Source of the DNA: Paramacrobiotus metropolitanus
Taxonomy: Eukaryota; Tardigrada; Eutardigrada; Parachela; Macrobiotidae
Reading direction: 5' to 3'
Length of the DNA: 64,000 nt
NCBI RefSeq assembly: GCF_019649055.1
Contig: NW_026570339.1
Coordinates: 310,001 to 374,000 of the forward strand
In this document: positions 3,700 through 47,040 of the stretch, in pieces
Position numbering within the stretch: the stretch's first letter is position 1
Layout of the letters: each line of letters begins with the position of its first letter
The notes under the pieces: model-generated
The model's input: only the letters and a program-made list of their open reading frames with translations
What the model was told of the DNA's origin: nothing
Database searches by the model: none
Position numbers and translations under genes: made by a program

Positions 3700-4031
3700 C
3701 ATGATTTATATGACGCGGCAGCGCGGCCAGTGTACTGCCGAGCGTCTGCACCGTCGCATGATCGCAGGAGTTGGGTTAGAGATCTAAGTAAGGATATCGC
3801 TCGATCCTTCCGGCGGAGCGCACAATGGGACTGGCCTAGAACTCGGCCTTGGTGCAGTCGGGGCAGATGATGTTCTCCTTGTCGGTGATAAAGCCCTTGC
3901 CCACCAGCGACTGCTGACCGGCACAGCGAGTGCGTGGCGGAGAGCTGGGCGTAGCAGGTGGTGTACTAAGCTATTAAAGGGTTGTCCTCCTTCACCGGAA
4001 CTGCTGGTCGGCAGCGTGGTGGTGTTGGTTA
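3700..4031 (-). pseudogene. Decayed copy of the Limpet terminal LIM exon and 3' flank
   Basis: From about 3838 the sequence follows the last exon of the LIM gene at 20835-21184. The stop codon context and the stretches encoding the last LIM finger match closely. An internal block of roughly 90 bp, present in the intact exon, is missing after 3920, and further indels break the frame. The upstream 3700-3830 stretch also matches the 3' flank of the intact gene (20695-20820), including the GCGGCCAGTGT and GCAGGAG blocks. The copy therefore came from genomic duplication including flank rather than from a spliced transcript. It cannot encode a LIM finger. Confidence 0.8.
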
Positions 4032-4322: not shown

Positions 4323-4402
4323 CAGGCAACGTTTTCTCTGATCTCAGTCTTTCAGTCTGAGGTTTCTCCGTTTTTTATCTCGCTTTCTCCACTTCGCTTC
4401 CC

Positions 4403-4476
4403 TTCACTTTACTTCAGTTCACTTGCTCAGAATTCTGCGCAGAATTCTGAGGAAGTGAACTGAAGTAACGTGAAGG
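4403..4476. repeat. Near-perfect inverted repeat (hairpin)
   Basis: Two arms meet at GCGC around 4439-4442 with essentially no loop. The inner 29 nt of each arm pair with one mismatch (left TACTTCAGTTCACTTG, right its complement). Imperfect pairing continues outward to CCTTCAC / GTGAAGG. It could be the fold-back core of a short inverted-repeat element. Confidence 0.75.
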
Positions 4477-9448: not shown

Positions 9449-9456
9449 TATGTATC
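9449..9456. repeat. Target-site duplication, right copy
   Basis: TATGTATC, continuing into CATCGAGTGCATAA, which matches the unoccupied related site at 20600-20613. Confidence 0.85.
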
Positions 9457-9840
9457 CATCGAGTGCATAATTATTTATATCCAGCGGGGGCAGGCGAATG
9501 CGCCACAAGATGACGCGTTAAAGGCCTTTAGTTACGGCCATCGGAATTCGGATGACGGGACGCCGGGACCAGAGTGTGAGTAATGCTGCAGCGGCGGCCA
9601 GTGTTCTGTCGGTAGTATATATATGGCGTTTGCACGGCAGCAGGAGCTGAATTAAAGATATAATAATGACATCCGTGCGTCGCTATCACCTCTGCAGTTA
9701 TTCAACAATTACGGAAATACAAGCACTGTTAATATGATTCTGTAAATATACGTCCCGGTCGATGGTGACCATTGACCACGATTATGTATATCATATATGT
9801 GCCGGCGGTGATCTTTGGCCAAGCACGGAGTTGTTGAATA

Positions 9841-13140: not shown

Positions 13141-13343
13141 GTGAAGTTTCACTGTTCATGCAGTGGAACTTCCTTCTTACAGTTAGTCACCGCGCGCAAA
13201 AATGCAATTTTTTCTGTTTTTCTTCCGTCTCTTTGTAAATCTTTTCACCGGAGCGCATGCTCGACCTATGAGCACGGCCGCTAACGCGACCGACCCAGTT
13301 CATCTTGGCGCTTATTATTCTTCTGCATGCAGTCTCCTGATTA

Positions 13344-13416
13344 TGGACATGCTTGCCGGTGTGACAAGAACCAGGAACCAGGAATTCCTGGTTCTTTGTC
13401 AAATTGGCAAGCATGT
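13344..13416. repeat. Inverted repeat around a GGAATTCC centre
   Basis: GGACATGCTTGCC and GACAAGAACCAGGA on the left pair with TCCTGGTTCTTTGTC and GGCAAGCATGTCC on the right, with small internal mismatches. A following GTCATGTTCGAACATGAC (13431-13448) is a second perfect palindrome. Confidence 0.75.
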
Positions 13417-13573
13417 CCATCACATTGGCTGTCATGTTCGAACATGACAACCACTTACTCCTCACTCTGACCCGTAAGCAGGAAAAGGACGGCGAAGTGG
13501 ACCGGGGACTTATAACAGTAAATCCAAAGTCGACCTCACTGTACTTTTCCTGCTTACACCGCCGCTGTTTCAA

Positions 13574-15026
13574 TTAGCCTTATTGCGGGTGTTTTGAGCA
13601 CCGTGGCTCTATCGAAATGTGTTCAACGATGGAGAAATCGTGACTGATGCTTGATCAGGTACAGCAATAAATTCTCATACGTTAAGATTAAGTGATATAA
13701 TAGCCAGGTGTATGCATGGAAAACACGGGTACGAGCGACCTTTCGTGGTCCGAACAGCATCACAGGCTTTCAGGGACTTGCATACGGTCATAAGCGAAAG
13801 CGGATCTTTCTTTTAATACGGTATATACTGTATTTGTACGCACTTTGCATGTTACAATTTGTATGCCCACAGAGTAAAATGCAACGTTTGAATATACAAC
13901 GGTTAAATTGTTGTCACACGTCCTGACAAAAACGCTCCCACCAATCACGAACATACGCATCATCCGGTTTGCCATCCTTTTGCGCAGGTTAACAGCGAGA
14001 ACAGTTTCTGACAAAACCGTTAAAATCATCCAAAGACGTAAGTAAAATTCGGTTCACGCTCAGCGATACCAGTTTATAGCAGTTTACCATTTAATCATCC
14101 AGTTTATTCGCTGAATGTTTTATTTATTATTGAAATGTGTTTCCAGTAACGCGATAACAGTATTATATTAAGGGTCAGTTACTTTTAAACAAAACAATAT
14201 TTTCCACGGTACCAACAGAAGCGGCATTTCCTCTTCGTTGAACTGTAAAATAATTTAACGGTGATCAAAAGCAGTTATTTCTCGAACAGGCCGGTAATGC
14301 TGAATAATACTGTTCGCCGGCAGTCATTACGTAGAATATAAGGTCACGGAAAGGGACATTTTCGACTTTGCTACACTATATACATATCTGATATTATTGG
14401 TATATTTTACCGCTTTCTTTTTGCCTTCGTTAATGTGAGCTCATACGGAACGATCTACCGCGCGCGGCTTGTAAAGTGCTGACGAATACGCATATAAAAT
14501 TTACATATATAATAATTATGATAACTGCAGATGTCAGTCACGTACACGTGACGTATAATATCCGTCTGATACACATGTATATGCTACGTAGCATATACAT
14601 GTGTATCAGACGGATACTAAATAGTTTTCTTGTGCAGTTGGCGGTTAGCCATCCTATTTCAGTGGCAAATCTGTGATCAAAAGCGACGAAATGATAACTC
14701 TGCATCCTTCGTAATCAACGATCGATCTAGCTCGATACCAGTTCTAATTCAGATATATAATAGAATTGTTCTGCTGTGGCATGTATCTAAACGCAATGAC
14801 TATGCGATACATAAATGATAAAACAATAAAGATAAATGTTTCGCTTTATAGTGTTTCTGGCAAGCTGTCGTTCGTGTGGATTAGGATGTTGTATACTCCT
14901 TAAATCGGTAGGTACTCTTTGCTAGACAGTAAATAAATAATGCAACACTTTGCAGACCGACTGACCGATTTTCCCGTTCTTTACATTTATTAGTATATAT
15001 TTCGATGGCATATTTTTGTATTAATT
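13574..15026. other. Spacer, no gene seen
   Basis: AT-rich with only short unrelated frames. It contains the 58-bp perfect palindrome at 14559-14616, listed separately. Confidence 0.5.
14559..14616. repeat. 58-bp perfect palindrome
   Basis: Each 29-nt half (TATCCGTCTGATACACATGT then ATATGCTAC) is the exact reverse complement of the other, with no spacer at the centre (CTAC|GTAG). A perfect spacer-free palindrome of this length is unlikely by chance and tends to be unstable, so it is probably young or maintained. Confidence 0.9.
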
Positions 15027-15080
15027 TTATGACAGCTTCACCCTTACAAACCCGGCCCGCTTGTTGGATGGCTGCATCAT

Positions 15081-15803
15081 GCATTTTGAGCAGCGGAGCG
15101 CAAACTTCTCCTCGTAGCAGCGGCCGCAGTAGATCTCATTGTCCTTGGGCACGAAGGAGCCCGTGCCGATGGCGTGCTTGCAGGAGACGCAGACGAAGCA
15201 CTTCTCGTGCCACTGACGCCCCTTGTACTCCAGCTTCTTCGTGCCGGCCTGCATAGACAGTTAAAACGTGCAACAATATAGCCGCACTTTTTGCAAAGGT
15301 CACCCATTAAATACACCTGGAATATCTCGCCGCAGCCGTCGCACTTCTGGCCGAAGGAGGTCTCGTAGCAGTTGCCGCAGTGACTGCTTCTCTACGCCGG
15401 CACGCGTTCATTCGCAGTCACTATTGCCTATTGGTGATTCTCTACAGAGATACGGTTAGTTCGTTCGCCAATAAATTCTTTAATTGTGTTACTATTAATA
15501 ATTTCTACTCCTTCATATATATCTGGATGCTTTTCCAGCAGCTCACAATATTAATGTCAGCATACAGCGTAAATTAAAACTATTTTGGCAGCACGCAGTG
15601 ATGCATGTGCATGTGATAGATGATACCGGTAAGTTGCTATGAATTATGATTACTGTAGTTAAATATATTGTATGACGTCAGTGAGCAGCACTACTCTAGT
15701 TACAGATAGCTGTGCCTTAGAAATGGAAAATTAGTACCGACCTTGAAGTAGACCTCGTGGCCCATGCGCGGGCACTTGCAGTTGGCGCAGAACTCTTCCA
15801 CTC
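15081..15803 (-). pseudogene. Decayed partial copy of the Limpet-like gene
   Basis: Three separated blocks follow the intact gene in order on the minus strand. 15740-15803 matches the first coding exon (the CPRMGHEVY part of the PET domain, donor region included). 15317-15380 matches the end of exon 5. 15081-15252 matches exon 6 nearly completely. The small intron between the last two (15253-15316) also aligns, so this is a genomic duplicate. The GC donor of exon 6 is lost: the copy reads KCMMQPSN in place of a splice site. Exons 2 to 4 are missing. Not functional as a PET-LIM protein. Confidence 0.85.
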
Positions 15804-16090: not shown

Positions 16091-16267
16091 AATGTCCGTG
16101 CCGATTAACAGTGGTCCGCTGCCGCCGTATCTGCAGTACTGTACACCAACAGAGCACGATGCGCTCGTCATCTGTTTCCTGCAAAGTGTCTTAAAAAACC
16201 AGGAGGAGAACCGACAAAAGCAGGAGGACTGGAGGACAGCTACAAAATATCATTCGGCTTTAATGTA
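16091..16267 (+). CDS. Candidate small coding exon
   Basis: A 58-codon open stretch from an ATG, encoding MSVPINSGPLPPYLQYCTPT and then a charged helical tail rich in Q, E and K (NQEENRQKQEDW). Codon use looks protein-like, but the end runs directly into the left arm of the inverted repeat at 16237-16318. The coding sequence may therefore be interrupted by that structure or partly an illusion. No family is recognised. Confidence 0.25.
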
Positions 16268-16318
16268 GCTTCACAATGGAGCTACATTAAAGCCGAATGA
16301 TAGTTTGTAGCTGTGCGC
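16237..16318. repeat. Inverted repeat with 36-nt arms
   Basis: CATTCGGCTTTAATGTAGCT and its complement AGCTACATTAAAGCCGAATG lie around an 8-9-nt loop. Pairing extends to ACAGCTACAAA / TTTGTAGCTGT with one or two mismatches. A second pair, GGATTTGGGTTTGGC (16359-16373) and GCCAAACCCAAATCC (16417-16431), follows within 100 bp. Confidence 0.85.
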
Positions 16319-18485: not shown

Positions 18486-20834
18486 TTAAAGTCACATAAT
18501 TACTTTCACCTACACACCATCTCTGGTTATTATATATATGAATACTAACAATCGACAATTTATCTGTGCCAGGATTTCGGCCCCTTTCCTTCCCGGCAAA
18601 TGATCTCAGCTTCTACTCGTCCAAATTAATTAATTTAAAATGCAACAGAAGCCTCTCAATTTTTATATAATTATGCCAGTAACATTTACCTCTTGACCTT
18701 TAGCTAATTTTATTTTTTTGAGATCCAGTGGTCAGTCATCAGCTTATTACCATGGACGCCATAAGAAAACAGAATAGAACAGCGATAGAATAAACAAGGA
18801 TCTAACTGCGCAACAAAATATCCCAGCTCCGCACTTTTCGCACGACCTACTGGATTCTTTATGTTAACATTTTAAATGCGAGTCTGGTGTCAACTGCAGT
18901 CTGCCACTACGTAGTGCTACCAACCAGTAACGTTTCCGCATTTTTCCAGCTCTTTAAGGAGAATTTCTGCTTGTGCTACAATGTTCATACGCCCAGTACT
19001 CGGTTTGGAAGGGCAAGTTTCGTTAAGAATAATATGATCACAAGACAGAAGCAGCAGTAGTGCTATGCGTCTCGCGTCCATACTGGCTTTTTTTTCGATG
19101 GAAAACTGCAAAACACAGATGTGCAACAACATGTCCACCCTGTACAGATACGTGTGACGCATAAACGCAACAATTTTAAGGTCATTACGAAAGACCTCAT
19201 GATGCGACGAAGTGTGATCTTAACAAGAAGAACAATTCCACAAAGTATAACATTTATATAGCAACACAAATAACATAGTTCCAAAGAGAATATCAGAATT
19301 ACGAGTACATCATGTAATGCGACCAGTTATTATCGTCTTCGGTGTCGGTGACGAAACGCTAAAACTACTGATACCGCGGGCGTCAGGCACCGTAGTCATG
19401 CGGGTAATTTTTTAACCTACCTTGAGCAGGAATCAAAGATAGATCAAGGGGAGTTGCTTCAACGATATGGATGTTTTTAAGTCAGCTGATTTATTTTTAG
19501 CAAGTATATAATAATTATAATATCTGGCAAGCTTCATAGAACTGCTTTCACGTTACTAAGGTGACTGCGCATTAAATAATATGGTAATTATTAAATCTTC
19601 TAAAAACGAGACGTTTTTATGGGTTACACAAATAAACAGTGGTTAAATGCTAAATCACGCAGTACATTATTATTTTCAGCACATCTACACTTCATTCAGC
19701 CTCCTCCCGAAGCAAAAGGTTTAAAAAGTGGTTATATAACAACATCGTATACGCGACGAGCAAAACTGCGTACTAAAATTATATTAAGTACTAATATATA
19801 TTATACAATAGTACTACTCAGTACTCACGTACCCAGCACCGTACTAGTATCGCATACGTTCCATATCGATTACTAATTAGCACCGGCTGTTAAAACCGAC
19901 AAAATGTAGTAAGTACTGTGGTGTTAACATAATGTTTCAGACAGCAAATGGGGTTACTGCGGCTTTTAATTTGCGGGTGAAGCTCTGAAGTTCATCCAGA
20001 TATGGTTCGCTACATTTCTGATTTAGGGATGTATCCACATCAATAAGCCGATAAAGTCTTGATATCATCAGCAGGTGATTGTGGGAAATGCGCTAGTTTA
20101 AAATGGGTAAGAACAACATACTTACATATCTAGGATCATCGGAGCATATTGAACACAGTTTTTTTTTTGTGAACGTGCAGCCACTTGATGGAAAAAAAGC
20201 AGTGTGCTTTCCAAATGTGAGCCACTTTGACAACTTCGTAAGGCAAAGGCTTCTATAATCATGACGATAATAACTTTAAGGCAAATAAGTCTGCCAAGGA
20301 GCTTTTCTCTGTTTGGTTCGGTACGTTTCCTTTATTCTAATGCACAATTGCAAGTAAGTAAATGCACGCTGATTACTGGATGCAGATTCAATCTACACAA
20401 TATTAAGGCGCCTGTGTAAATCTGTAGCTAGGCAAGCAAGTATCATAATAATATCTATTTAACAGAGACCGCGCTCAAGGCGGACATAATAAAAAACGCA
20501 GATAGGCTAATTAAATATTGATGCAGAACAGGTTAGTACGAATAGTTTTGGCACATTGTAGTTTGAAGAGGTTCAGATTAGGATATTGTCTATATATGTA
20601 TCCATCGAGTGCATAAGTATATCCAGCGGGAGCAGGCGCATGCGCCCCAAGGTGACGCGTTGATTGCCTTTACGGATGGCGGGACTAGAGTGTGATTAAT
20701 GCTGCAGCGGCGGCCAGTGTGTTGCCGGTAGTATGACGATTGCACGGCCGCAGGAGTCGGGTTAAAGATATAATAATGACATCATTCCTTCCGGTGCCGG
20801 TTACATTCCGGTGGAGCGATGGACGCGGACCGGC
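18486..20834. other. Spacer, includes 3' flank of the Limpet gene
   Basis: Apart from the possible signal exon at 18991-19081 (minus) no gene is visible. From 20360 on, the DNA is the 3' flank or UTR of the LIM gene and is the source of the related segments near 3.7 and 8-9.7 kb. Confidence 0.5.
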
Positions 20835-23247
20835 CTAGAACTTGGTCTTGGCGCAGTCGGGGCAGATGATGTTCTCCTCGTCGGTGATGAAGCCCTTGCC
20901 GACCAGCGACTGCTGGCACAGCGAGCAGAGGAAGCACTCGTTGTGCCAGTGCCGGTTCTCGAAGGAGATGAACTTGGTGCTGCCGCCGGCCTGCCCGATG
21001 ATGGGCTGCTGGCAGGCCGTGCAGCGCTTGGCGAAGAGCTGCGCGTAGCAGGTCGCGCAGTACGGCTTGTCCTCCTTCACCGTGAACTTCTGGCCGGCCA
21101 GCGTCGTGTTGCAGTTGCTGCACAGGAAGCACTCCTTGTGGTACGGCGCGTTCTTGTACGTGATGCCGTTCGTCGCTATCACCTCTGCAATCAATTACAC
21201 GGACACGATTACTGTATGTCTCTGTAAATGTACGCCCCGGCCGATGATGACCTTTGACCAAACTTAAACCGTTTATTACATTACTGTATATGCATACTAT
21301 TATACATACGGCGGTGACCTTTATAATTAATTAAACCGCGGCAGTATGTTCATATATAAACGGTGACCTTTTAACCAAATACACCGCTGAACGCTGAGTA
21401 AGTACTTGCCTGAGCATTTTGAGCAGCGGAGCGCAAACTTCTCCTCGTAACAGCGGCCGCAGTAGATCTCATTGTCCTTGGGCACGAAGGAGCCCGTCCC
21501 GATGGCGTGCTTGCAGGAGACGCAGACGAAGCACTTCTCGTGCCACTGACGCCCCTTGTACTCCAGCTTCTTCGTGCCGGCCTGTGGGAACAGTTAAGCG
21601 TGCTTCAATACAGTCGCACTTTTGGCAAAGGTCACCAATTAAAAGTTGAGCGTACCCGGAATATCTCGCCGCAGCCGTCGCACTTCTGGCCGAAGGAGGT
21701 GTCGTAGCAGTTGCCGCAGTAGATCTTCTCGTCCTTCGTGCCGAAGGCCTTGTCCACCAGACTCATCTTGCACAGCGCGCACAGAAAGCAGGCCTCGTGC
21801 CAGTGGCGCTCCTTGTAGGCCAGGTCGCGGCCCTCGATGCCGATGGGCTTGTGGCAGTCGGAGCAGGTGTTGGCGAAGTTGTCTTCGTAGCACTTGAGGC
21901 ACACCGGGTTGCCGTCGCGCAGCACGTAGCGCTTGCCGGTCAGCGGCTGCACGCAGCTGCTGCAGGTGAAGTGGTTGGCGTGCCAGTCGCGGTTCATCGC
22001 CTGTGCATCCATATATGTATTAGCATTTTATCAGCACTGTCACTACAGATAGGAAAGGTCACCTTACCCGTGTGTATTCCCCGGCAAAGATCAGCTCCTC
22101 GCAGGCGGCGCACCGCGGCTTGGCCTGCTCGGCGAAATGCCGCTCACAGAAGATTTTGGCAGCTGCGTAGAAAACGACAGGCATTGGATGCAGCAAAGGT
22201 CACTTTTTATATGTGTACATATATTGGCCTTTCGTACGCATCGTTGTTTATACACAGTACCGTATTCGTATATACAGGTGCGATACATGTTTATATATAA
22301 ATACATATTGCGTAATTGTGGATGTACCGTTGTTCTCGTCGGTGGGCGGGCCGACGCAGTAGACCAGCTCGACGAGGAGCTCGTTGCAGGTGGAGCAGAC
22401 GAAGCAGCCGGGATGGTAGTAGGCCGTCTCGCCGCACTTGGGCGCCACCACCACCACCGAGCCCTTGTGGATGACGCCCTTGCAGTGCCGGCACGTGCTG
22501 GTGTCCGGCAGGATGTCGCGCACGTAGCCGCGGTCCAGGCAGTGCTCGTTGCGCGTCTGCACGAACTCCTCGTAGGACTTTTTGTGGCTCTCGTCGATGA
22601 AGTGGCACTCCTCCAGGCTAAAGTCCTGTTGGACGCAGTTAAGTGTATCGTCAGTCTACGTTGTTAAAGGGCAATCAACAACTGCCCACCTGGGGCGGGA
22701 ACTGCTGGATGAGCTGCTGGTGCCAGTAGACCTCGCCCGGACTGTTCTTCATGGGCTTCTTCTCGTCGGGGATGGACTTGAAGAACTCCTCGATCTTCTC
22801 GCGCGGCAGGCCCACCGGCGCCCAGATGTACTTGGCCGGCACGTAGTTGGACTTGGCCGTCGACACCATGCGCATCGCGTCCGGCAGCTTGATCGGCACG
22901 CGCTCGTTCACCGCCAACGAGCCTGTATAACAATATACCCGTAACCCGGTATATTCGAGCATATATGTATGTATAGTAAGCATAACATTTTGCAAGAATA
23001 TTCCAAGCAGAAGCGTGACTGGCATATGACGTCAGCAAGCAGCGGAAGTTGCAACCTCGAAAGCACAGTAAGCAGAGTTGTGTATATGTAGCGCATAAAG
23101 AAGCTGACCTTGGATGTAGACCTCGTGGCCCATGCGCGGGCACTTGCAGTTGGCGCAGAACTTCTTCCACTCCTGCGGCTGGTAGCCCGGGCACTTGTCG
23201 CCGCAGGCGATGCACGGCTGTCCCACGTCCACCACGTCCGCCGTCAT
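20835..23247 (-). CDS. Lmpt: Limpet-like PET plus six-LIM domain protein
   Basis: Seven coding exons: 23247-23109, 22922-22690, 22625-22328, 22162-22068, 22000-21656, 21581-21410 and 21184-20835. All phases agree and total 1632 nt, giving 543 aa. The ATG is chosen because an in-frame TGA lies just upstream. Residues 1-140 form a PET domain ([27 protein letters not shown]). Six LIM zinc fingers follow, opening CRHC, CAAC, CSDC, CDGC, CSKC and CTAC, with the final CPDC near the C-terminus. This order matches Drosophila Limpet and the related Testin/FHL family, adaptor proteins at muscle and actin-linked junctions. The intron after exon 6 uses a GC donor (CAG|GCAAGT). Three decayed partial copies lie upstream in the window (3.7, 8-9.8 and 15.1-15.8 kb). 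Additional 5' exons or isoforms are possible. Confidence 0.93.
21185..21409 (-). other. GC-AG intron in the Limpet-like gene
   Basis: The donor reads CTCAG|GCAAGT, otherwise a perfect consensus, and the acceptor is TGATTGCAG. Only this junction restores frame (TGC TCA G + AG GTG), giving the expected LIM linker [13 protein letters not shown]. Confidence 0.85.
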
Positions 23248-34496: not shown

Positions 34497-35272
34497 CGCT
34501 GGTGACCTTTGCTGTCGCACTGATGCATTGTGATACTGGTGATAAATAAAATACGCTGAGTAACATATGACAGTTGCACTTTTGGTAATGTATCGACAAC
34601 TGTTCAATGAAATCTTTAGCGCTCAACAGCTTTTAATTCTTGTACCGTTTACAATTGTGACTTGGAGCAGTTTTGGATGCTGTAAATACATAACTGTTAC
34701 GCAAATTAAAATTGTAGAATGACCATGTCTGCGATAATAGAAATTGTGTACTTCGACGGGGAAAGTAAGTATGCATGTACAGAGTCAGACAGTACAGTAA
34801 TCGCTTGATTTCGATCGATAGGAATCCGTGCATACTTCACATTATTTTGTATACGTTCCGGTTGCGTGCTTGGGACTGAAGCGCATTTAATCATCGATTC
34901 ATCACATCAGATTTTCGTGGAACGTCATAATGGCAGTTAATTTCTTGTTACCTAGTATAAATCCCTTCATAAATTCATTTGCTTTTAATTTCATCCAACA
35001 TTTGGTGGAAACAAGCAAAGTGAAACTTTTAAAACGATGATTTCGCACCGTTTCCGGTTGGTAAAGAAATGGCACCCTCCTGGTGTGGCAGCGTTATTTG
35101 ACTTGACTAGGAAATTTCTGGCAGGTCGTTTCCTTACTGCTAGTGCATTAATGCACTGGCATGCACGCACGATCCTACCACATTCGTGTTATTTACAATT
35201 TTATATACAGTACTGCAATTTTTTGTCTACAATGGATAGCACGTAGTCCGTAGATGATAAAATATGTTATTA
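34497..35272. repeat. Duplicated module X, copy 1 (SLC25A29 3' flank)
   Basis: Matches 43994-44714 and 45722-46443 along nearly its whole length (blocks CTGATGCATTGTGATACTGG, AATGTATCGACAAC, CACCGTTTCCGGTTGGTAAA). Its second half also matches 37701-38105. Similarity is high but with many indels between copy 1 and the 44/46-kb pair. Confidence 0.85.
34545..34550 (+). promoter_or_regulatory. Likely poly(A) signal of the carrier gene
   Basis: AATAAA 65 nt after the stop codon of the SLC25A29-like gene, within the duplicated module. Confidence 0.6.
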
Positions 35273-36163
35273 TGTTATGTTATATGTTACGATAAAGTAT
35301 GCTCTGTTATTTTTGACAAAGGCATTGTTACGCCTCTGAAATACTCGTATATATATCCCGGGTTCTTCACAATGTGTGTGACTTTTTACTACTTTATTCA
35401 GGCAATAGCCAATTAATATAACAAAAAGCCAGCGCTGATGTACACTAATTAAAGATTTCGAATGTGTGTAATTTGATTACTGAGCAATTACGGAGTTTTA
35501 GAACAACACTTGACATTTGAAGGAAATACTACAACCGATTATCAGACATCGATGCTGTTCTTTTTCCCAGTTTCTATCATGGACGAAAGTACGGAGTACA
35601 AAATCGTGGGCAGGGTGAGTTTCTCGTTTAGCAATGGAACGAGAGGCAAGGTTTTTCTATGAGAAAATTAAGTTAAAAGTATCTCTAATTATATTAAAGC
35701 GCCTGAAAGTCTGTCTGGCAGATTATATGTACACTAATTACTATAGTAGGCCTACAATTAAAAACCGTTACTGGCCTTACAGTATCATTCGCAATGAATT
35801 CTCTATTTTGCTGATTTCCTTAGGCCCCTGTGGATGCGGTGGGCGCGATGCCGCCGTATGAGGCGCTGTTGGCCGAGGCCAGTCAAATCAGCTATCACAA
35901 CACTGTCGTTGTCCGCAGCCGCGACGACACTTGGTGGTTGGGATACATTCAGGATATTGACGGTGAGCAAGCCTTTATTCATTTCAACTGCACACTAGTC
36001 GCGGCTCACTGGGTGCACATGAGCGCCGTCTGGCCTCTGCCGTACTACTGGGACACCGAGCTGGCCAGTAAAGGTCACCACAACATTCCGGTGTTCGCGG
36101 CACTGCGTGATGACGATGACGGACCGTTCCGTTTCCGGCCAGCCGTTCTGCTGGACGTATTGT
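34841..36163 (+). repeat. Segmental duplication, copy 1
   Basis: Near-identical to 37701-39003, starting at ATTATTTTGTATACGTTCCG and ending abruptly at CTGGACGTATTG inside exon 2 of the F-box-type gene. Differences are mainly small indels in non-coding DNA. In the exon 2 part I see one substitution (ACTTGG versus ACGTGG). Confidence 0.92.
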
Positions 36164-36329: not shown

Positions 36330-37320
36330 TTCCTCGATATTCTTTTAAAGAAGGAGGATCGACTCCAAATAAATTCCCGTTTGACTTATAGAGAGGTGTG
36401 ACAGTTTGTTAAATTGCAGCTACCAGAAAAATTTGCCCACTGGCTGCATCAGCACTTTAAATTCTTCGAGAAATCGACAAAGCAAAATACTGCACAATTT
36501 GTTAAATCCCATTCTACGTATCCTTCACCTGCTCATATCTTCGTTGAACTGCTCTTGATCCTCCGGAATGGCGCCATGCGTCTTCGAAACGGTGCCTCAA
36601 TGTATTCGTTTGATGGATAAGCAGGATCTCCGTATAAAATAAACTTTTCCCAATTTCCACCATTTTCTCCGGAGTTTATCCATTAGGCCACTATCGGCGA
36701 GAATTCCTGCATCATGTCTTCTTCCTGGCCACGGACCGTCTAAATTCACGATCATGCCATTTGGAGCAACGACAGACTGGAAAATCATGCTGTGCATGCG
36801 ATAGTGTGCATTCCAGACTACGCTGCCCTCAGAAGGCCTACCTCGGTCGCACAGTGCCATCGATATAGCCCCAAACGTTATCCAGGGGCCTTGGCAAGGG
36901 CTGCATCAGCAAAGCCCTGCAAATCATCTCGTGTAAAAGCCTTCACGTCAGGGTATTCAAGAGATGAATGAAGTGGCAATAGATATGCTCAATAACCCAG
37001 TGAAAGGCCATACAAAGTTCCGTTATGGATCTGTGGAAGATTATTGTCAGATCTGTATGCGACACGGATATGCTAGTCGCAGAGAAAATGCAGAGCTTCA
37101 GTTCCTTCGTAAATCGACCCGGATTCAGTACGCACCACATCCGGGATGAGCAGCTCCTTGCGCAATAATTCGATATCCTCGCGTTGGAATCTGAACCAGT
37201 CGACACACTGCTGATCAGGGATGTCTTGAAGAGCGAATTTCTTTCTGGCAGCCTTTTGCTCCTAAGATTTTCTTGGTTGTGGAACGCCAGAAAAAGCGCG
37301 ATCTCTTCAGGTTCGAACAT
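36330..37320 (-). mobile_element. PIF/Harbinger transposase relic (DDE_Tnp_4 type)
   Basis: Read on the minus strand with several frameshifts, the fragments line up in transposase order. The N-terminal part has LFLAFHNQ and then TKELKLCIF. Next comes ITELCMAFHWVIEHIYCHFI, resembling the family's helix-turn-helix region. The catalytic core has MHSMIFQSVVAPNGMIVNLD and GRRHDAGILADSGLMDKL. The C-terminal part has GDPAYP, EAPFRR and TNCHTSL. Multiple stops and shifts make it inactive. It sits exactly between the two copies of the 1.3-kb duplication. Confidence 0.75.
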
Positions 37321-37700
37321 CCACGGCGATGATAGTTTGTAAAATTTTATTGAACGAATGGGCCATTATTATAACAAATTTATTGTGGAATATCAGGACT
37401 GTTGGGTAACTGCAGGTAATACTGGCAGGTTATAATTTTAAAAAATTTTGTGGCATAGAAGGAGTAATTATGATTTTCGTCTGGTGGTATTTATACCAAT
37501 TTATGATGATTTACCGTGCATATTCGTGAGAATCAGTGACACAATATTTTTGAATTTTTCTGGCTGATATTTCAGTGTTATTGTACGTCACTGCAGCTGT
37601 AAGGCATCTGAAGTGTTTCCGGTCCGCCGACGTGCGGCCTATGTTACGGCGTACGGTCTACTGAACGAAAGTGAAAAACACGTGCAATCTGAAATAGGCT

Positions 37701-39003
37701 ATTATTTTGTATACGTTCCGGTTGCGTGCTTGGGACTGAAGCGCATTTAATCATCGATTCATCACATCGATTTTCGTGGAACGTCATAATGGCAGTTAAT
37801 TTCTTGTTACCTAGTATAAATCCTTCATAAATTCATTTGCTTTTAATTTCATCCAACATTTGGTGAAACAAGCAAAGTGAAACTTTAAAACGATGATTTC
37901 GCACCGTTTCCGGTTGGTAAAAATGGCACCCTCCTGGTGTGTTATTTGACTTGACTAGAGATTTCTGGCAGGTCGTTTCCTTACTGCTAGTGCATTAATG
38001 CACTGGCATGCACACCTGATCCTACCACATTCGTGTTATTTACAATTTTATATACAGTACTGCAATTTTTTTGTCACAATGGATAGCACGTAGTCCGTAG
38101 ATGATAAAATATGTTATTATGTTATGTTATATGTTACGATAAAGTATGCTCTGTTATTTTTTGACAAAGGCATTGTTACGCCTCTGAAATACTCGTATAT
38201 ATCCGGGTTCTTCACAATGTGTGTGACTTTTTACTACTTTATTCAGGCAATAGCCAATTAATATAACAAAAGCCAGCGCTGATGTACACTAATTAAAGAT
38301 TTCGAATGTGGTAATTTGCTGAGCAATTACGGAGTTTTAGAACAACACTTGACATTTGAAGGAAATACTACAACCGATTATCAGACATCGATGCTGTTCT
38401 TTTTCCCAGTTTCTATCATGGACGAAAGTACGGAGTACAAAATCGTGGGCAGGGTGAGTTTCTCGTTTAGCAATGGAACGAGAGGCAAGGTTTTTCTATG
38501 AGAAAATTAAGTTAAAAGTATCTCTAATTATATTAAAGCGCCTGAAAGTCTGTCTGGCAGATTATATGTACACTAATTACTATAGTAGGCCTACAATTAA
38601 AAACCGTTACTGGCCTTACAGTATCATTCGCAATGAATTCTCTATTTTGCTGATTTCCTTAGGCCCCTGTGGATGCGGTGGGCGCGATGCCGCCGTATGA
38701 GGCGCTGTTGGCCGAGGCCAGTCAAATCAGCTATCACAACACTGTCGTTGTCCGCAGCCGCGACGACACGTGGTGGTTGGGATACATTCAGGATATTGAC
38801 GGTGAGCAAGCCTTTATTCATTTCAACTGCACACTAGTCGCGGCTCACTGGGTGCACATGAGCGCCGTCTGGCCTCTGCCGTACTACTGGGACACCGAGC
38901 TGGCCAGTAAAGGTCACCACAACATTCCGGTGTTCGCGGCACTGCGTGATGACGATGACGGACCGTTCCGTTTCCGGCCAGCCGTTCTGCTGGACGTATT
39001 GTT
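37701..39003 (+). repeat. Segmental duplication, copy 2
   Basis: Partner of 34841-36163. This copy is continuous with the full-length gene and is presumably the parent. It has small deletions in non-coding DNA relative to copy 1 (for example loss of GGCAGC near 37940). Confidence 0.92.
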
Positions 39004-42000
39004 TGGCTGTCAGTGGGGCTGTCAAATGTTTTGCATCACAACGCGTACGGGGACTGGCGTTGCCCACAGCAACGTTCCTCCACGCACAGCCGGTTTGGAG
39101 GTGGTCCACGTGCGCCAAGTGGCCAGTGAGCTGCCGCCATCTGGTCCACCGCTGCTGGAACGCCGCAGCGGTGTGTTCTACACCAAGCACTTTGTCCCAT
39201 TCGGCCGTGCCCAAAGCCTTCTGTGCGAGCCTTCCGATAAACACCGCATCGTTAGACATATATACGAGGCTATCCGAGCCAAGCTGGGCTTAACCGCCAA
39301 TATGTACGCACCGGACTGTTGCCGGTTTCATCTGCGCATCGAAGAGGACGGTTGCATGTTTGTCTTCGTCAGTCTCGCAACGGATGTCGATCCGGACGCG
39401 CAGCCGACGCAGACGCAGACGCACTGGCTGGCCGGCAGCCTGGCGACAATCCTGGAAACACATCTGGCCAGCCGCGCTCATCTACCGCCTATCCACAAGG
39501 ACCACAACCAAGCGGCAACTGCAAATCGTCAAGTCTTCTGTGAAATCGGTTAGCATCTTTACCGCCTTCCGGAATGTGAAAGGCAGGAGGTCATGCAGCA
39601 ATAGCGGTAACAATTTAATGATAACAGGACACGTAAGCGAAGACGATGAATCCGGGTCAGGAAAAACTTTAGGTAGGAACCAGACAGGAGTAACTCTCCA
39701 GGAACATAATGCAAGTCAGATGGTACTGGCTTACCGGCTTTTCGGTGAAACAGGTCTCGCGGCGATGTCTCCGGCAAGGTTTGCGCACAAGTGTGTGCGG
39801 TAAAATGCGGGGCAGCGGGCGAAACCTCCTGACGACTTTGAAAAATACGTTGTGGGTGTTTGAAGGTTTGACGGGATTCCGCCAAGTGGGCATAAGCCAT
39901 AAAACCGCGTCCACAAGGCTGAGCGAGTGATGCAAAACAGGTAGAATACTGGCAATAACTACGGTGGCTGGATCCAAAAGGAAGTCCGCATTCATCTTCG
40001 TGTTACAGGCAGTTGTTCTTTCCATATAATAAATGGTGCATTTGACGTGTTGCCGATTGATGCGATCAACTTCTTCTTACTAGCTGGTCCAACAAAATCA
40101 CCAGATACATACCCGACACTTGCATAAACCGATGCAGACATGATGAATTATTATAGTTATACCTCAAAACAACTGCAAGCTGATAGCAAAAAGACGCTAG
40201 AATCATGATGGCGCGTAAATGCGAAAGGTCACGACAGAACTACACAAAAAATACCGGTATGCATTCAGTATACAAAATACCGGTAAAAAAATTTTACGAA
40301 GCAAGTGACACATGTTAGCGCTTAGCATTTCCCAATTTATACCAATTCACACACACATAACTGTAACAGAGACCACTAGAAAGGGGGCGTGTCGTGTGTC
40401 GCAATACCCGGATTCCTGCGTCCCTCTGAATCCAATCCATATCGCTTATGCTAATACTACAGATTACAGAGTAGTACTAATATTAAATAATATTAATCCA
40501 TCCGACACTACTGTAAAAATTAGGAACTGAACAGGATAGCTGCCCTAGGTCTAGGTCTGGACCTGTAATGCTTCGTTTTCGTCGCTCGCTGAGTCTGTTT
40601 CGGTCCCTTCGTAATAAGTATACGAGTAATCCAGTTAAATTATACAGTCAAACTAAAGTAAAACTTGTCGCCAGATCTGTTAACACCTGCAAGCTATCGT
40701 GGCGCATAACAACAGATTATGTCAAAACACTGCGTCGCAACGGCCAACGGGGTGGGGTGTCTACAGATAACGTCCGCGAAAAAACCGGGTGCACGAAATA
40801 ATAAACAAAAAGGAGTGCGTACAGTAAAACGAGATGCAGAAAGGGATGCCTGTAGCATCACCCTATTTACTTTTTACTTGGTGTAGCAAATTTGGCATAT
40901 TAAACTTATTACTGGCATACTTTAAGTAATTTACTCATCTTAGTGTATATCTGTAAGCCGCATCAAAAACGACTGTTTTTCTAACCGACTGAAATCTGAA
41001 CGTTTGTCGAGAGCCGTTAATGAGTTAATTACGGTCTTCTAAAGTGAAATATTTGTTAGTTTTATATAGAAGTACTACTGCTTCTGTGCGTGACTGTGTC
41101 CGAAAGTCTGAAACTATCAAGCGAAGAAACCTTGCAGCAAAACTATAGCGGCCGGTTACTACTTAGTAGTTACTAGCCTCGCAGTGCTCCTGTATTTTTT
41201 CAGTAATAAAGTGTTGTCGTTCCGAGTTTTGCGCGCAGCAAAAGCGTACAGACAATTTTCTAACGTACATGTTTTAATGTCCGTTCCCGGCAAGTTTACA
41301 GAAGCGCTTCGGTACAGTTAGTCTAGGCTATTTAGTATGTTCAGTTTGCTGGTTGTCGCAGCAGTGTGAATGTCGGTCTTCCTTAATTCAGGTGTACCAG
41401 AGGATGCAGTGACGTGGCCGGCCCGCATCCGGGATTTGACGCCTTCCCTGCTGAGCGACATCTTGTCGCATTTGGACTTGCATTCACGCATGAAAGCCAA
41501 ACGGTAGGTACGATGGATCTCTGCCCGCACTAATTGTTTTTCGAAAAACAGAAGCAATAATGTGTCCAAGGGTCGGTAGCGGTCTTGCGAAGTGGAATTG
41601 TACAGTCCAAGGCCAGTCTGTAGCAGTTGGGATGTCTATCCACAGTCGTTGCGAGGGGAACGTACTGGTACTGGCGCCCCACGGTCCCATGACTCCCACC
41701 CTTCGCGGAGGCAGAAAACGGGAAAACGGCGCGCCCGGAGGTGTTGCACTAACGCAGGCGCAGAAAAGAGCGAAAATGCGAAAATGGGCCGGGCGCAAGA
41801 GGGCACCGAAAATAAAATGTGGTGAAAACGCGTAGCGAAGTGGCTTTGTTGAGCCCGTTTACTACGTCTTTCTCCAAGGCCGGTTTTAGGCCGTTTTCCA
41901 ACTGGCGCAGCGGGCGCACGGACGCGCAGCCGTGCACCCTTCCCCTCCCTCCAAGTCCGCGGCCGCGACGGCCCTGGATGCATGCCATAACGTACAGTGG

Positions 42001-43097
42001 TACACTAAAGGTCATCGTCAGACAACCGCAAACTGTGTTGCATTGGTTTCTTCGATCGTAGGGTGTGTGCCCTCTGGCAGTTGCTGTTGAGCAGCTGTGG
42101 AATGACGGAACACGTCAGCATCTCTTTCGAAAGCTGCTGGCACCTCCAAGCCGACGGCGATTACTGCCTGCTCCAGACGGACAACGACAACTGCTTCCGC
42201 GCGGCCTCACTGCTCAGCCGCTCCATCAGCACAACGACCATCAGCCTCACTCTCCTGACACTTTTCCCCCCGCATGACTCTGCATTTTTGAGGCCGCTGT
42301 TGCGTGCCATGGAAATTAGGCTGCCTTTACTGGTGCTCAAGGACCACGTTATAATTAACGGTGAAGCAAGGGGATTTCAACGACACAAACGGTCGCGTTT
42401 AAAGCACGCCGAGTCAAATATTATAACGCTGTACAAGCACAATGCCAACTTTGTTTGCCTGCACAACTGGAAAGTGTCGCAGCTTTTCGGTCAGCAAATG
42501 CACGAAGTCTTTGTGGGCAATATTTACTACAAACCTCAAGCCGGCGTGACCACTTGTTCCCTGCCGGCGCATGAACGGGAGTGGATGGTGCCCCTCGCAT
42601 GCCAGTCGCAGGCACCGCAGCTGGCCGTCGACCAACTGCAGATCACCATTCCCAAGCTGCTCCTGCCCTGCAGCCGCAAGATGCGCATGACCAGTCGCTT
42701 CATGTGCGCCTTAAACGACAACTTCCCGCCGGTCACGCCGGACATGCTGGCAAAGGTCACGGCCGTTCATGCGCGCTGGCTGCGCACTCTGACCTATCCT
42801 GAGGATTGGCAGCGTATTCGCGACTACCTCTTACTGTAAGTTATACGTATCCCGGTATATACGCGTCATAATACCAATACAAGTACAGTCAGCCTTGGAG
42901 AGCATTAACGGCTAGGCTACTCTTCCACTTCCAACGCTTTGATTTCCAATTTGATTTTTTCCCTGTTCTGCAGGTACAGCGGATTTCGTTCGGACGGAAG
43001 CCCAACAGTGTGGGACGGCATCGATCTGCGGCGTATGGATGTTTCCACATGGAGCAAAATGGCCATATACGGAATTAACGAGGTGTTTCGAGTGTGA
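38418..43097 (+). CDS. F-box protein with Tudor-like N-terminal region
   Basis: Five exons: 38418-38453, 38663-39548, 41392-41503, 42062-42835 and 42974-43097. Phases agree at every junction and total 1932 nt, 643 aa. Residues 20-75 (VVVRSRDDTWWLGYIQDIDG, then FIHFNCT and WVHMSAVWP) resemble a Tudor or chromo-barrel fold. Residues about 319-352 form an F-box (LTPSLLSDILSHLDLHSRMK, then VCALWQLLL), which normally binds Skp1 in an SCF ubiquitin ligase. The last 290 residues are unrecognised and probably bind the substrate. Intron 2 (1.84 kb) is much longer than the others and contains transposon-like debris. I know no named family with this layout. Expansion within this lineage is inferred from the local duplicates. 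Codons are less GC-biased than in the housekeeping neighbours. Confidence 0.75.
39549..41391. other. Long second intron of the F-box gene
   Basis: Donor G|GTTAGC, acceptor TTAATTCAG. The spacer holds short open stretches on the minus strand, for example about 50 codons ending near 39990 that begin MSASVYASVGYVSGDFVGP. These look protein-like but were not identified. A separate nested gene or an old insertion is possible. Confidence 0.5.
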
Positions 43098-44717
43098 TCT
43101 GTGAAGCCATGCCAGTGCATCGATATCGATGCTGATCTCGTGAAACATAACAGACCGACCATCCGGAATTCCTGATTATTATTGGTTGCTGCCGCTGGAC
43201 AGGGGACACAATCGATCAAGAGATTGCAGATAACGGGAGACGGCAAGCATTACAACAACTAGACGGGGCTTATCGCTGTCGACGGTCTAACTTTAATTTC
43301 CTAAGGACAAAAGCGGCTTTGCATTTCCTGGGAATTATCGTCATTCAGTTTATCTGTTAGTTTTCCTTCCTTGCATTGCTGCGCTGGATCTGGAGTTTGA
43401 CGTGTTGTAGCCAAACTCCATTAACGGAGATCTCTTACCTGATTATTGGAACATTTTGTGGGATCTGTTCAGTAAATTTTATTATCCTTTCTGTAATCGG
43501 TTGTACTAACGAGTTATGATAAACTCAGTGTACTGTACGAGTATTGTGTACTTTGGCTACAATAATAAACTACTCGTACTGTACTAGTTTATGCGCTAAT
43601 ACTTCCTGGGCCAGTCATTTTGCAGATAACATGAATCGACGGAAGCGTAGCGAGGGTCTTCTATGTTCAGCGCTAATGAAAAATGTGGTGTCTGACTGGC
43701 TGTACATGTACGTATACGTCGGTCGCTGCCACCAAATGCACATACAGTATACACGGTGACGTTTGTTACCGGAGGCACACATGTACATGCACGGTGGCCG
43801 TGTATACTCACGCAGCGAGTCCCGCTACATGACATTATACGAGTAGCTATGCACAGTGAGGAAACCACTTCATGTCACTAATACGAGTGTGGTCAAAAGG
43901 TTATCGTTTTTGGTCAAGTTGGCAGCTGCAGGGCACGGACGTTTTTGCTTTTTGCCAATCCCAATCGCGAGCGATGGTTTTCATTACCATTATCAGAGTG
44001 ACCTTTGCTGCCACACTGATGCATTGTGATACTGGTGATATAATTATACGTCAGTTGCACTTTTGATGTAGCTCGGTAATGTATCGACAACAGTAATGTC
44101 TAATGAAAGCTTTAACGCTCAACAGCTGTTACTTCCTGTACTATTTACAGTTGGGACTTGGAGCCGTTTTCGGATGCTGTAAATACAAAATTATTACACA
44201 AATTAAAATTAAATTGTGTAATGACCAAGTCTACGATATTAGAAAATGCCAATGGCGTAATCAGTTGCTGTAATGATTAAATCGGTAGGTATCTGTACAT
44301 ACAAAGTACATAAGTACACTACGTCACATTCGCATACGCATTCTGTGCTTGACGGTGGCGCATTTAATCATCCACAAACTCATGAAACGTCATAATGGCA
44401 GTTGAGTTCTTCCTACCTAGTAAAAGCTCCTTCAAAAATTTGTTTGCTTTTTATTTCATCAAACATTTGGTAGAAACAAACAAAGTGAAACTTTTAAAAC
44501 GATGATTTCGCACCGTTTCCGGTTGGTAAAGAAATGGCACCCTCCTGGTGTGGCAGCGTTATTTGACTTGACTAGGAAAATTTCTGGCAGGTTTCCATAA
44601 ATCGTTTTCCTTACTGCTGCATTAATGCACTGGCATGCACGCACGATCCTACAACATTTGTGATATTTACAATTTTACATACTGCAATTTTTTGTCTGCA
44701 TTGATAGCACGTAGATT
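42990..44717 (+). repeat. Tandem duplication, unit A
   Basis: Repeated head to tail as 44718-46443 at an offset of about 1728 bp. The two units are almost identical, with single-base differences such as GAAGCC versus GAACC near 43110/44838 and TTTATTA versus TTTTATTA. It begins within the last F-box exon and ends in TAGCACGTAG. Confidence 0.95.
43564..43569 (+). promoter_or_regulatory. Possible poly(A) signal of the F-box gene
   Basis: AATAAA about 470 nt past the stop codon, inside tandem unit A and repeated in unit B near 45292. Confidence 0.4.
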
Positions 44718-46443
44718 TCGGACGGAAGCCCAACAGTGTGGGACGGCATCGATCTGCGGCGTATGGATGTTTCCACATGGAGCAAAATGGCCATATACGG
44801 AATTAACGAGGTGTTTCGAGTGTGATCTGTGAACCATGCCAGTGCATCGATATCGATGCTGATCTCGTGAAACATAACAGACCGACCATCCGGAATTCCT
44901 GATTATTATTGGTTGCTGCCGCTGGACAGGGACACAATCGATCAAGAGATTGCAGATAACGGGAGACGGCAAGCATTACAACAACTAGACGGGGCTTATC
45001 GCTGTCGACGGTCTAACTTTAATTTCCTAAGGACAAAAGCGGCTTTGCATTTCCTGGGAATTATCGTCATTCAGTTTATCTGTTAGTTTTCCTTCCTTGC
45101 ATTGCTGCGCTGGATCTGGAGTTTGACGTGTTGTAGCCAAACTCCATTAACGGAGATCTCTTACCTGATTATTGGAACATTTTGTGGGATCTGTTCAGTA
45201 AATTTTTATTATCCTTTCTGTAATCGGTTGTACTAACGAGTTATGATAAACTCAGTGTACTGTACGAGTATTGTGTACTTTGGCTACAATAATAAACTAC
45301 TCGTACTGTACTAGTTTATGCGCTAATACTTCCTGGGCCAGTCATTTTGCAGATAACATGAATCGACGGAAGCGTAGCGAGGGTCTTCTATGTTCAGCGC
45401 TAATGAAAAATGTGGTGTCTGACTGGCTGTACATGTACGTATACGTCGGTCGCTGCCACCAAATGCACATACAGTATACACGGTGACGTTTGTTACCGGA
45501 GGCACACATGTACATGCACGGTGGCCGTGTATACTCACGCAGCGAGTCCCGCTACATGACATTATACGAGTAGCTATGCACAGTGAGGAAACCACTTCAT
45601 GTCACTAATACGAGTGTGGTCAAAAGGTTATCGTTTTTGGTCAAGTTGGCAGCTGCAGGGCACGGACGTTTTTGCTTTTTGCCAATCCCAATCGCGAGCG
45701 ATGGTTTTCATTACCATTATCAGAGTGACCTTTGCTGCCACACTGATGCATTGTGATACTGGTGATATAATTATACGTCAGTTGCACTTTTGATGTAGCT
45801 CGGTAATGTATCGACAACAGTAATGTCTAATGAAAGCTTTAACGCTCAACAGCTGTTACTTCCTGTACTATTTACAGTTGGGACTTGGAGCCGTTTTCGG
45901 ATGCTGTAAATACAAAATTATTACACAAATTAAAATTAAATTGTGTAATGACCAAGTCTACGATATTAGAAAATGCCAATGGCGTAATCAGTTGCTGTAA
46001 TGATTAAATCGGTAGGTATCTGTACATACAAAGTACATAAGTACACTACGTCACATTCGCATACGCATTCTGTGCTTGACGGTGGCGCATTTAATCATCC
46101 ACAAACTCATGAAACGTCATAATGGCAGTTGAGTTCTTCCTACCTAGTAAAAGCTCCTTCAAAAATTTGTTTGCTTTTTATTTCATCAAACATTTGGTAG
46201 AAACAAACAAAGTGAAACTTTTAAAACGATGATTTCGCACCGTTTCCGGTTGGTAAAGAAATGGCACCCTCCTGGTGTGGCAGCGTTATTTGACTTGACT
46301 AGGAAAATTTCTGGCAGGTTTCCATAAATCGTTTTCCTTACTGCTGCATTAATGCACTGGCATGCACGCACGATCCTACAACATTTGTGATATTTACAAT
46401 TTTACATACTGCAATTTTTTTGTCTGCATTGGATAGCACGTAG
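44718..46443 (+). repeat. Tandem duplication, unit B
   Basis: Second unit, ending at GGATAGCACGTAGATGATAA. That ending agrees with the single-copy junction at 35232-35257 and at 38083-38107, which shows that unit B's right edge is the original one and that the A/B junction is new. Confidence 0.95.
44719..44825 (+). pseudogene. Duplicated last-exon fragment of the F-box gene
   Basis: Repeats codons for SDGSPTVWDGIDLRR through the stop with no change to the frame, but lacks the acceptor and first 17 nt of the real exon at 42974. It cannot be spliced on by the normal signal. Confidence 0.85.
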
Positions 46444-47040
46444 ATGATAAAATATGTTATCCATATTTCACCGTGAAATTGCGAATATTATTGCACTTGC
46501 TGTTATTTTGGAAAGTGTTCGGTGTTCACGCAGCTGCCACCCAGTCCATATTGACAAGCGATGCGTCAGCGCACTCAGCACTGCACAGTGCGGCTCACCA
46601 TCGGCAGAGTGACTGCAGTGCACCTACACTGCCGTGTATTGATGCGCATTGCGGTGTACGGCGCGTCGGCGACACGGCGATAGCGATTTTTCATTTCTGG
46701 TAAAACCTGATTAGATTTGTTGGCGCGTATGGAGAAGAACAGTGTGGAAATGGAGTGATGTGTTTTGATATTTATCCGCTGACTAGTGTTGGCCGTATGA
46801 ATACAGACATGCCGCGTACGGCCTGGTGAAGTGTCTTCTGGGCAGGTGAGTGCAGCGTCCGCCGCCACTCAACAGCCAACGACGAGCTGATTCGCTGACG
46901 GCGCTAACGACGTGGCGACCCGCAGCAGCCACTGTGTGGTGTACGAGTGACGAACTGCAGCTTGCAGCTGGTGTTGCTGCCCTGCCACGTCGCGGCCAAC
47001 GCGTGTGTTGGCAACTTGGCGCAGATCATTGTTGAGCGTG
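46444..47040. other. Spacer upstream of vigilin
   Basis: A 76-codon plus-strand frame at 46476-46703 begins with a hydrophobic leader (LLHLLLFWKVFGVHAAA) but then becomes Ala/Ser/His-rich. Without homology or splice support I do not call it a gene. The region probably includes the vigilin promoter. Confidence 0.4.

Follow-up and report, generated by a model that had tools for sequence, protein, structure and literature searches.

Gene content of the locus

We analyzed a 64,000-nt stretch of the tardigrade Paramacrobiotus metropolitanus genome (contig NW_026570339.1, positions 310,001 to 374,000), which in its entirety is called the window here. The locus at 38418-43097 is probably an F-box gene, and its front half may encode a small barrel-shaped binding domain. 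The gene model has five exons, 38418-38453, 38663-39548, 41392-41503, 42062-42835, and 42974-43097, separated by introns of 209, 1843, 558, and 138 nt. Every border is GT..AG, and the exons spliced in phase give one open frame of 643 codons plus a stop. This phase-perfect model had been proposed in an earlier, sequence-only reading, and both its borders and its frame were reproduced. When the eight inner borders were varied by -1, 0, or +1, this set was, among the combinations listed, the only one that kept both GT-AG borders and a single open frame. The features of the model are as follows.

38418..38453, forward strand: exon 1, 36 nt; 12 codons, MDESTEYKIVGR; start codon ATG flanked by A (-3) and G (+4)
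38663..39548, forward strand: exon 2, 886 nt; residues 13-307 plus base 1 of codon 308
38741..38833, forward strand: Tudor/Agenet/SH3-like strand pattern found with hhalign, residues 39-69 of the joined protein
41392..41503, forward strand: exon 3, 112 nt; contains the initial two thirds of the F-box
41433..42098, forward strand: F-box (PF00646), residues 322-357, interrupted by intron 3 (41504-42061)
42062..42835, forward strand: exon 4, 774 nt; end of the F-box and bulk of the unclassified C-terminal region
42974..43097, forward strand: exon 5, 124 nt; includes the stop codon
43564..43569, forward strand: possible polyadenylation signal AATAAA, 467 nt past the stop

The splice borders of introns 1 and 4 are good. 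The exon 1 donor, AGG/GTGAGT, scores 6.02 on a generic donor matrix, which places it in the top 0.3% of GTs in the window, and the exon 5 acceptor scores 6.49, in the top 0.06% of AGs. No RNA family reached its gathering score.

The F-box and the C-terminal region

The F-box itself is real. When the full protein is searched, residues 322-357 match PF00646 with an E value of 0.0021 and 18.4 bits, under the Pfam gathering cut-off of 20.5, and an isolated 61-residue slice rises above it (23.1 bits, E 6.6e-5); the same slice reversed gave no match. A 343-residue version of the protein, starting at the ATG at 41370, scores 19.9 bits, again under the cut-off. Neither exon 3 nor exon 4 alone has a Pfam F-box match. 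Because the F-box is detected only with exons 3 and 4 joined, the 41503/42062 splice has the support of the domain itself, and the F-box proposed by the sequence-only reading stands.

So does its view of the large C-terminal region, about 285 residues, as unclassified. A 275-residue C-terminal slice (with a wrong first letter in the query) and exon 4 matched no Pfam family at E values up to 10. The full protein matched nothing in Pfam beyond F-box models, including none of the substrate domains WD40, LRR, FBA, FTH, or kelch. AlphaFold2 run on exon 4 without an alignment gave a mean predicted local distance difference test (pLDDT) score of 33.1, with zero residues at or above 70.

Coding signal of the exons

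Coding potential was judged by a codon log-odds score trained on peptides, picked by eye, from neighboring genes: vigilin-like KH repeats, a mitochondrial carrier, an FHL-type LIM gene, a galactosyltransferase, and a DXD glycosyltransferase. Every training gene has at least one open reading frame (ORF) with a Pfam match, that of the DXD glycosyltransferase scoring 20.7 bits, under its cut-off of 23. Each exon was compared with 3000 noncoding draws of equal length. None of the draws was as good as exon 2 and none as good as exon 4, while 105 of 3000 were as good as exon 3 and 249 of 3000 as good as exon 5. Given these scores, it is very likely that both exon 2 and exon 4 code for protein, with a codon bias weaker than that of the neighboring genes. 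The signal of exons 3 and 5 is less clear, and exon 1 is too short to be judged in this way.

The N-terminal region

The sequence-only reading had described the front of the protein as Tudor-like, a description that found weak support. Compared by hhalign with a three-sequence FMRP/FXR profile, exon 2 scored 24.2, and none of 200 shuffles did as well. A 75-residue slice was then set against ORF segments from the window, of which 150 were sampled from 373. None of the 150 matched the FMRP/FXR profile as well as the slice, and only one did so for a PHF1/PHF19/MTF2 Tudor profile. The probability that hhalign itself assigns to these Tudor-type matches is about 3-5%. The hits of a PDB sequence search were three chains at E 0.6-0.7, chance level, all of them SH3 domains from a single actin-binding protein. 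AlphaFold2 without an alignment gave exon 2 a mean pLDDT of 37.1, with zero residues at or above 70. A small N-terminal barrel, perhaps of Tudor, Agenet, or SH3 type, is plausible.

We also considered an N-terminus organized like that of FMRP (Agenet, Agenet, KH0, assigned by eye) and rejected it. The KH0 slice was equaled by 63 of 100 shuffles, and the Pfam models Tudor_FRX1, Agenet, and KH_9 match the FMRP control and not exon 2.

One gene or two

Do exons 1-2 and 3-5 belong to one gene? We put the odds at about even. The exon 2/exon 3 join is the weakest part of the model, and one that we infer; two features of the window that bear on it are listed here.

39549..41391, forward strand: putative intron 2; weak donor, good acceptor, three AATAAA
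41370..41372, forward strand: in-frame ATG shortly before exon 3, where a separate F-box gene could begin should 39549/41392 go unspliced

The explanation we tentatively prefer, while holding it to be somewhat short of probable, is an SCF (Skp1-cullin-F-box) substrate receptor in which exons 1-2, in the same gene, add an N-terminal barrel region. At 41392, the exon 3 acceptor ranks among the best 1.2% of AGs in the window, and an acceptor this strong implies some upstream exon. On that side of it, no long frame other than exon 2 looks coding: among 150-nt intervals wholly within 39550-41349, none scores above -0.88 in any of the six frames. The phase of the join is exact. However, of the 477 ORFs in the window that reach 60 residues, 70 carry within their last 63 nt a phase-1 donor that equals or betters this one, so an in-phase join of exons 2 and 3 is weak evidence.

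Several results weigh against this reading. Some concern the join itself. The four donors, in order from exon 1 to exon 4, score 6.02, -0.51, 3.69, and 2.73, and about 11% of all GTs in the window match the score of the second of these, the donor of exon 2 (39549, TCG/GTTAGC). Donors of 14 inferred introns in neighboring genes range from -0.43 to 7.07, so that 39549 falls just under the lowest of them, though those introns were chosen with the same scoring and their scores are biased upward. Intron 2, at 1843 nt, is about four times as long as the longest of the 14 (57-473 nt); intron 3 (558 nt) is likewise longer than all of them. Within 39554-41351, 20 donors equal or exceed 39549 in score, of which 11 have an open in-phase ATG no more than 300 nt away and are thus possible first exons. 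Others concern coding signal: 652 of 3000 noncoding draws were as good as the final 33 codons of exon 2, where a different frame scores higher, and the exons of this gene score -0.67 to -0.29 versus +0.65 to +1.2 for the neighboring conserved genes, each scored with its own gene left out of the training. Such low codon bias would fit a fast-evolving, weakly expressed, or decaying gene.

Still others concern the Tudor family and the search for relatives. Pfam searches found no Tudor, Agenet, or SH3 family in the full protein, exon 2, or the slices, and no Tudor family appeared at E values up to 10; the sole line returned for the N-terminal searches was Ta0938 (E 0.21, one slice). Scans of prokaryote and virus contig collections with exons 2 and 4 confirmed no relative; the patterns used matched 5, 4, 3, and 27 stretches, none of which was confirmed as one. 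The missing relatives say little, because the collections scanned were those of prokaryotes and viruses.

The strongest rival, which we regard as a real possibility though a doubtful one, is that two genes lie side by side: one encoding a 308-residue protein from exons 1-2, whose ORF stops at the TAG at 39551-39553, and the other an ordinary F-box protein with the F-box near its N-terminus. An F-box close to the N-terminus is a common arrangement. The second protein would begin either at the ATG at 41370 (343 residues), which is in frame, or in a small initial exon located at 39.6-41.4 kb, where the best of the 11 candidates pairs the ATG at 39618 with a donor at 39673 scoring 2.82. The weak donor and outlying length of intron 2 speak for this arrangement, as do the stop directly at the supposed donor and the lack of coding signal in the last 33 codons before it. 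On the other hand, a start at 41370 would leave the acceptor at 41392 superfluous, and the candidate first exons are defined by a donor and an open in-phase ATG. The three AATAAA in 39554-41391 are no denser than those in the remaining noncoding parts of the window (1.43 per kb). Of the sequence-only reading, the exact phase of the gene model and the F-box hold; its single fused protein depends on one weak donor that precedes an exceptionally long intron.

A third reading keeps one gene and ends exon 2 at an inner donor, 38802, so that only a short N-terminus precedes the F-box; this form might be an alternative isoform. That donor (ACG/GTGAGC) scores 4.86, far above 39549, and has the phase 1 that exon 3 requires. 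Yet the frame continues open beyond it, and 39002-39349 scores -0.482 in frame, above the other five frames; we consider this reading improbable. As a separate observation, the donor-like sites inside exon 2 that score above 0 (38802, 39126, and 39171) and 39549 all share one phase.

Partial copies and local rearrangement

Parts of the gene recur on both sides of it.

34841..36163, forward strand: partial upstream copy of 37701-39002, 97.7% identical; spans the 5' flank, exon 1, and 340 nt from the start of exon 2, beyond which the DNA is unrelated to the gene
44717..46445, forward strand: head-to-tail copy of 42989-44716; end of exon 5 and 3' flank only

The coding part of the upstream copy differs by a single substitution in 376 nt, and it is synonymous (ACT/ACG). 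The 3' tandem copy has no substitutions and five single-base indels over 1726 aligned nt. When the joined protein was searched against the window by tblastn, the only matches in the right frame besides the gene were the upstream exon 1-2 fragment and the downstream exon 5 fragment. This search found no second F-box in the window and no further copy below E 0.7. Surrounding duplications had earlier been taken to suggest an expanding family, a suggestion that we do not retain: the copies are fragments lacking the F-box, so no expanding family is shown in the window. The fragments reflect local rearrangement, not a growing family. A literature search, with most subscription papers outside its coverage, returned no paper pairing the F-box with tardigrade gene family expansion.

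It is likewise improbable that the whole locus is in decay, with the ends of the gene falling within partial copies that local duplication made and the central copy disused, or that it is partly an assembly error; the partial copies flank the gene on both sides, its codon scores fall between those of noncoding DNA and conserved genes, and the 3' tandem copy differs by indels only (five, with no substitution), as consensus errors would give, but the central gene has no premature stop, its GT-AG borders are intact, and exons 2 and 4 retain a clear coding signal.

The same region also holds an older, diverged repeat of up to about 770 nt in four copies (34502-35270, 37774-38117, 43998-44714, and 45725-46460); the copies before exon 1 and those after exon 5 are 77-83% identical. 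One suggested reading is that this repeat is the remnant of a tandem array or mobile element. Between the two 5' copies, overlapping ORFs occupy 36943-37365; a minus-strand ORF at 37073-37261 resembles the start of a transposase by eye only, and Pfam found no match for it.

Elsewhere in the window

By Pfam, the neighboring genes include FHL-type LIM, THAP, and galactosyltransferase genes, a set that points to an animal genome. The FHL-type LIM region (20595-21720, minus strand) is another part of the window with partial copies, diverged ones at 3715-3930, 9449-9778, and 15081-15381, with 74-91% identity; 15081-15381 is 91% identical to 21414-21720. The ORF at 15080-15391 has no Pfam match. Four stretches (4401-4476, 13343-13420, 14556-14619, and 16236-16314) are self-complementary, being 64-79 nt long and 84-97% identical to their own reverse complements, and are perhaps small hairpin elements.

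Proposed function and its significance

Receptor proteins of SCF ligases contact Skp1 through the F-box and the substrate through a different part of the chain. The product of this gene may be an SCF substrate receptor, with Skp1 expected to bind at the F-box (residues 322-357). Most substrate binding would fall to the unclassified C-terminal region, about 285 residues long, an arrangement known from other lineage-specific F-box families. If exons 1-2 are indeed part of the same gene, and if they encode the putative Tudor/Agenet/SH3-like barrel, that barrel could serve as a second docking surface.

A bolder version, with an architecture so far unnamed, seems unlikely to us: a true Tudor/Agenet-like reader ahead of the F-box and of a novel C-terminal domain for substrates, giving an SCF receptor that a partner carrying methylation or some other modification would guide. 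No title describing a Tudor/Agenet and F-box fusion was among the literature matches listed, in a search with most subscription papers outside its coverage. In all, this is probably an ordinary lineage-specific F-box gene. If the exons do not form one gene, then an ordinary F-box gene adjoins an orphan gene, and the locus is a reminder that two neighboring open frames can readily be mistaken for one gene when their phases happen to match.

Comparison with known systems

The N-terminus of FMRP/FXR carries tandem Agenet/Tudor repeats and KH0. Residues 39-69 here weakly resemble both Agenet repeats, whereas there is no KH0-like signal.

Among F-box proteins, KDM2A, KDM2B, and FBXL19 also contain PHD and leucine-rich repeats. 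FBXL19/KDM2 proteins combine the F-box with chromatin-linked modules (PMC3685328). Their CxxC domain and other modules were not found here by Pfam; the likeness is that this gene, too, would encode an F-box protein with a chromatin-linked module, its putative Tudor-like region. In Caenorhabditis, the F-box A2 proteins have a captured N-terminal HTH, then the F-box, then a C-terminal FTH (PMC12062965). The gene here differs in having no HTH or FTH Pfam match and an N-terminal part that looks strand-rich, and it would agree in the order of an extra N-terminal module, an F-box, and a lineage-restricted C-terminal substrate region. A module placed ahead of the F-box has precedents (PMC12062965, PMC3685328). 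A real fusion here would join Caenorhabditis F-box A2 and KDM2/FBXL19 as a further example of F-box proteins whose N-terminus carries a second module for recognition.

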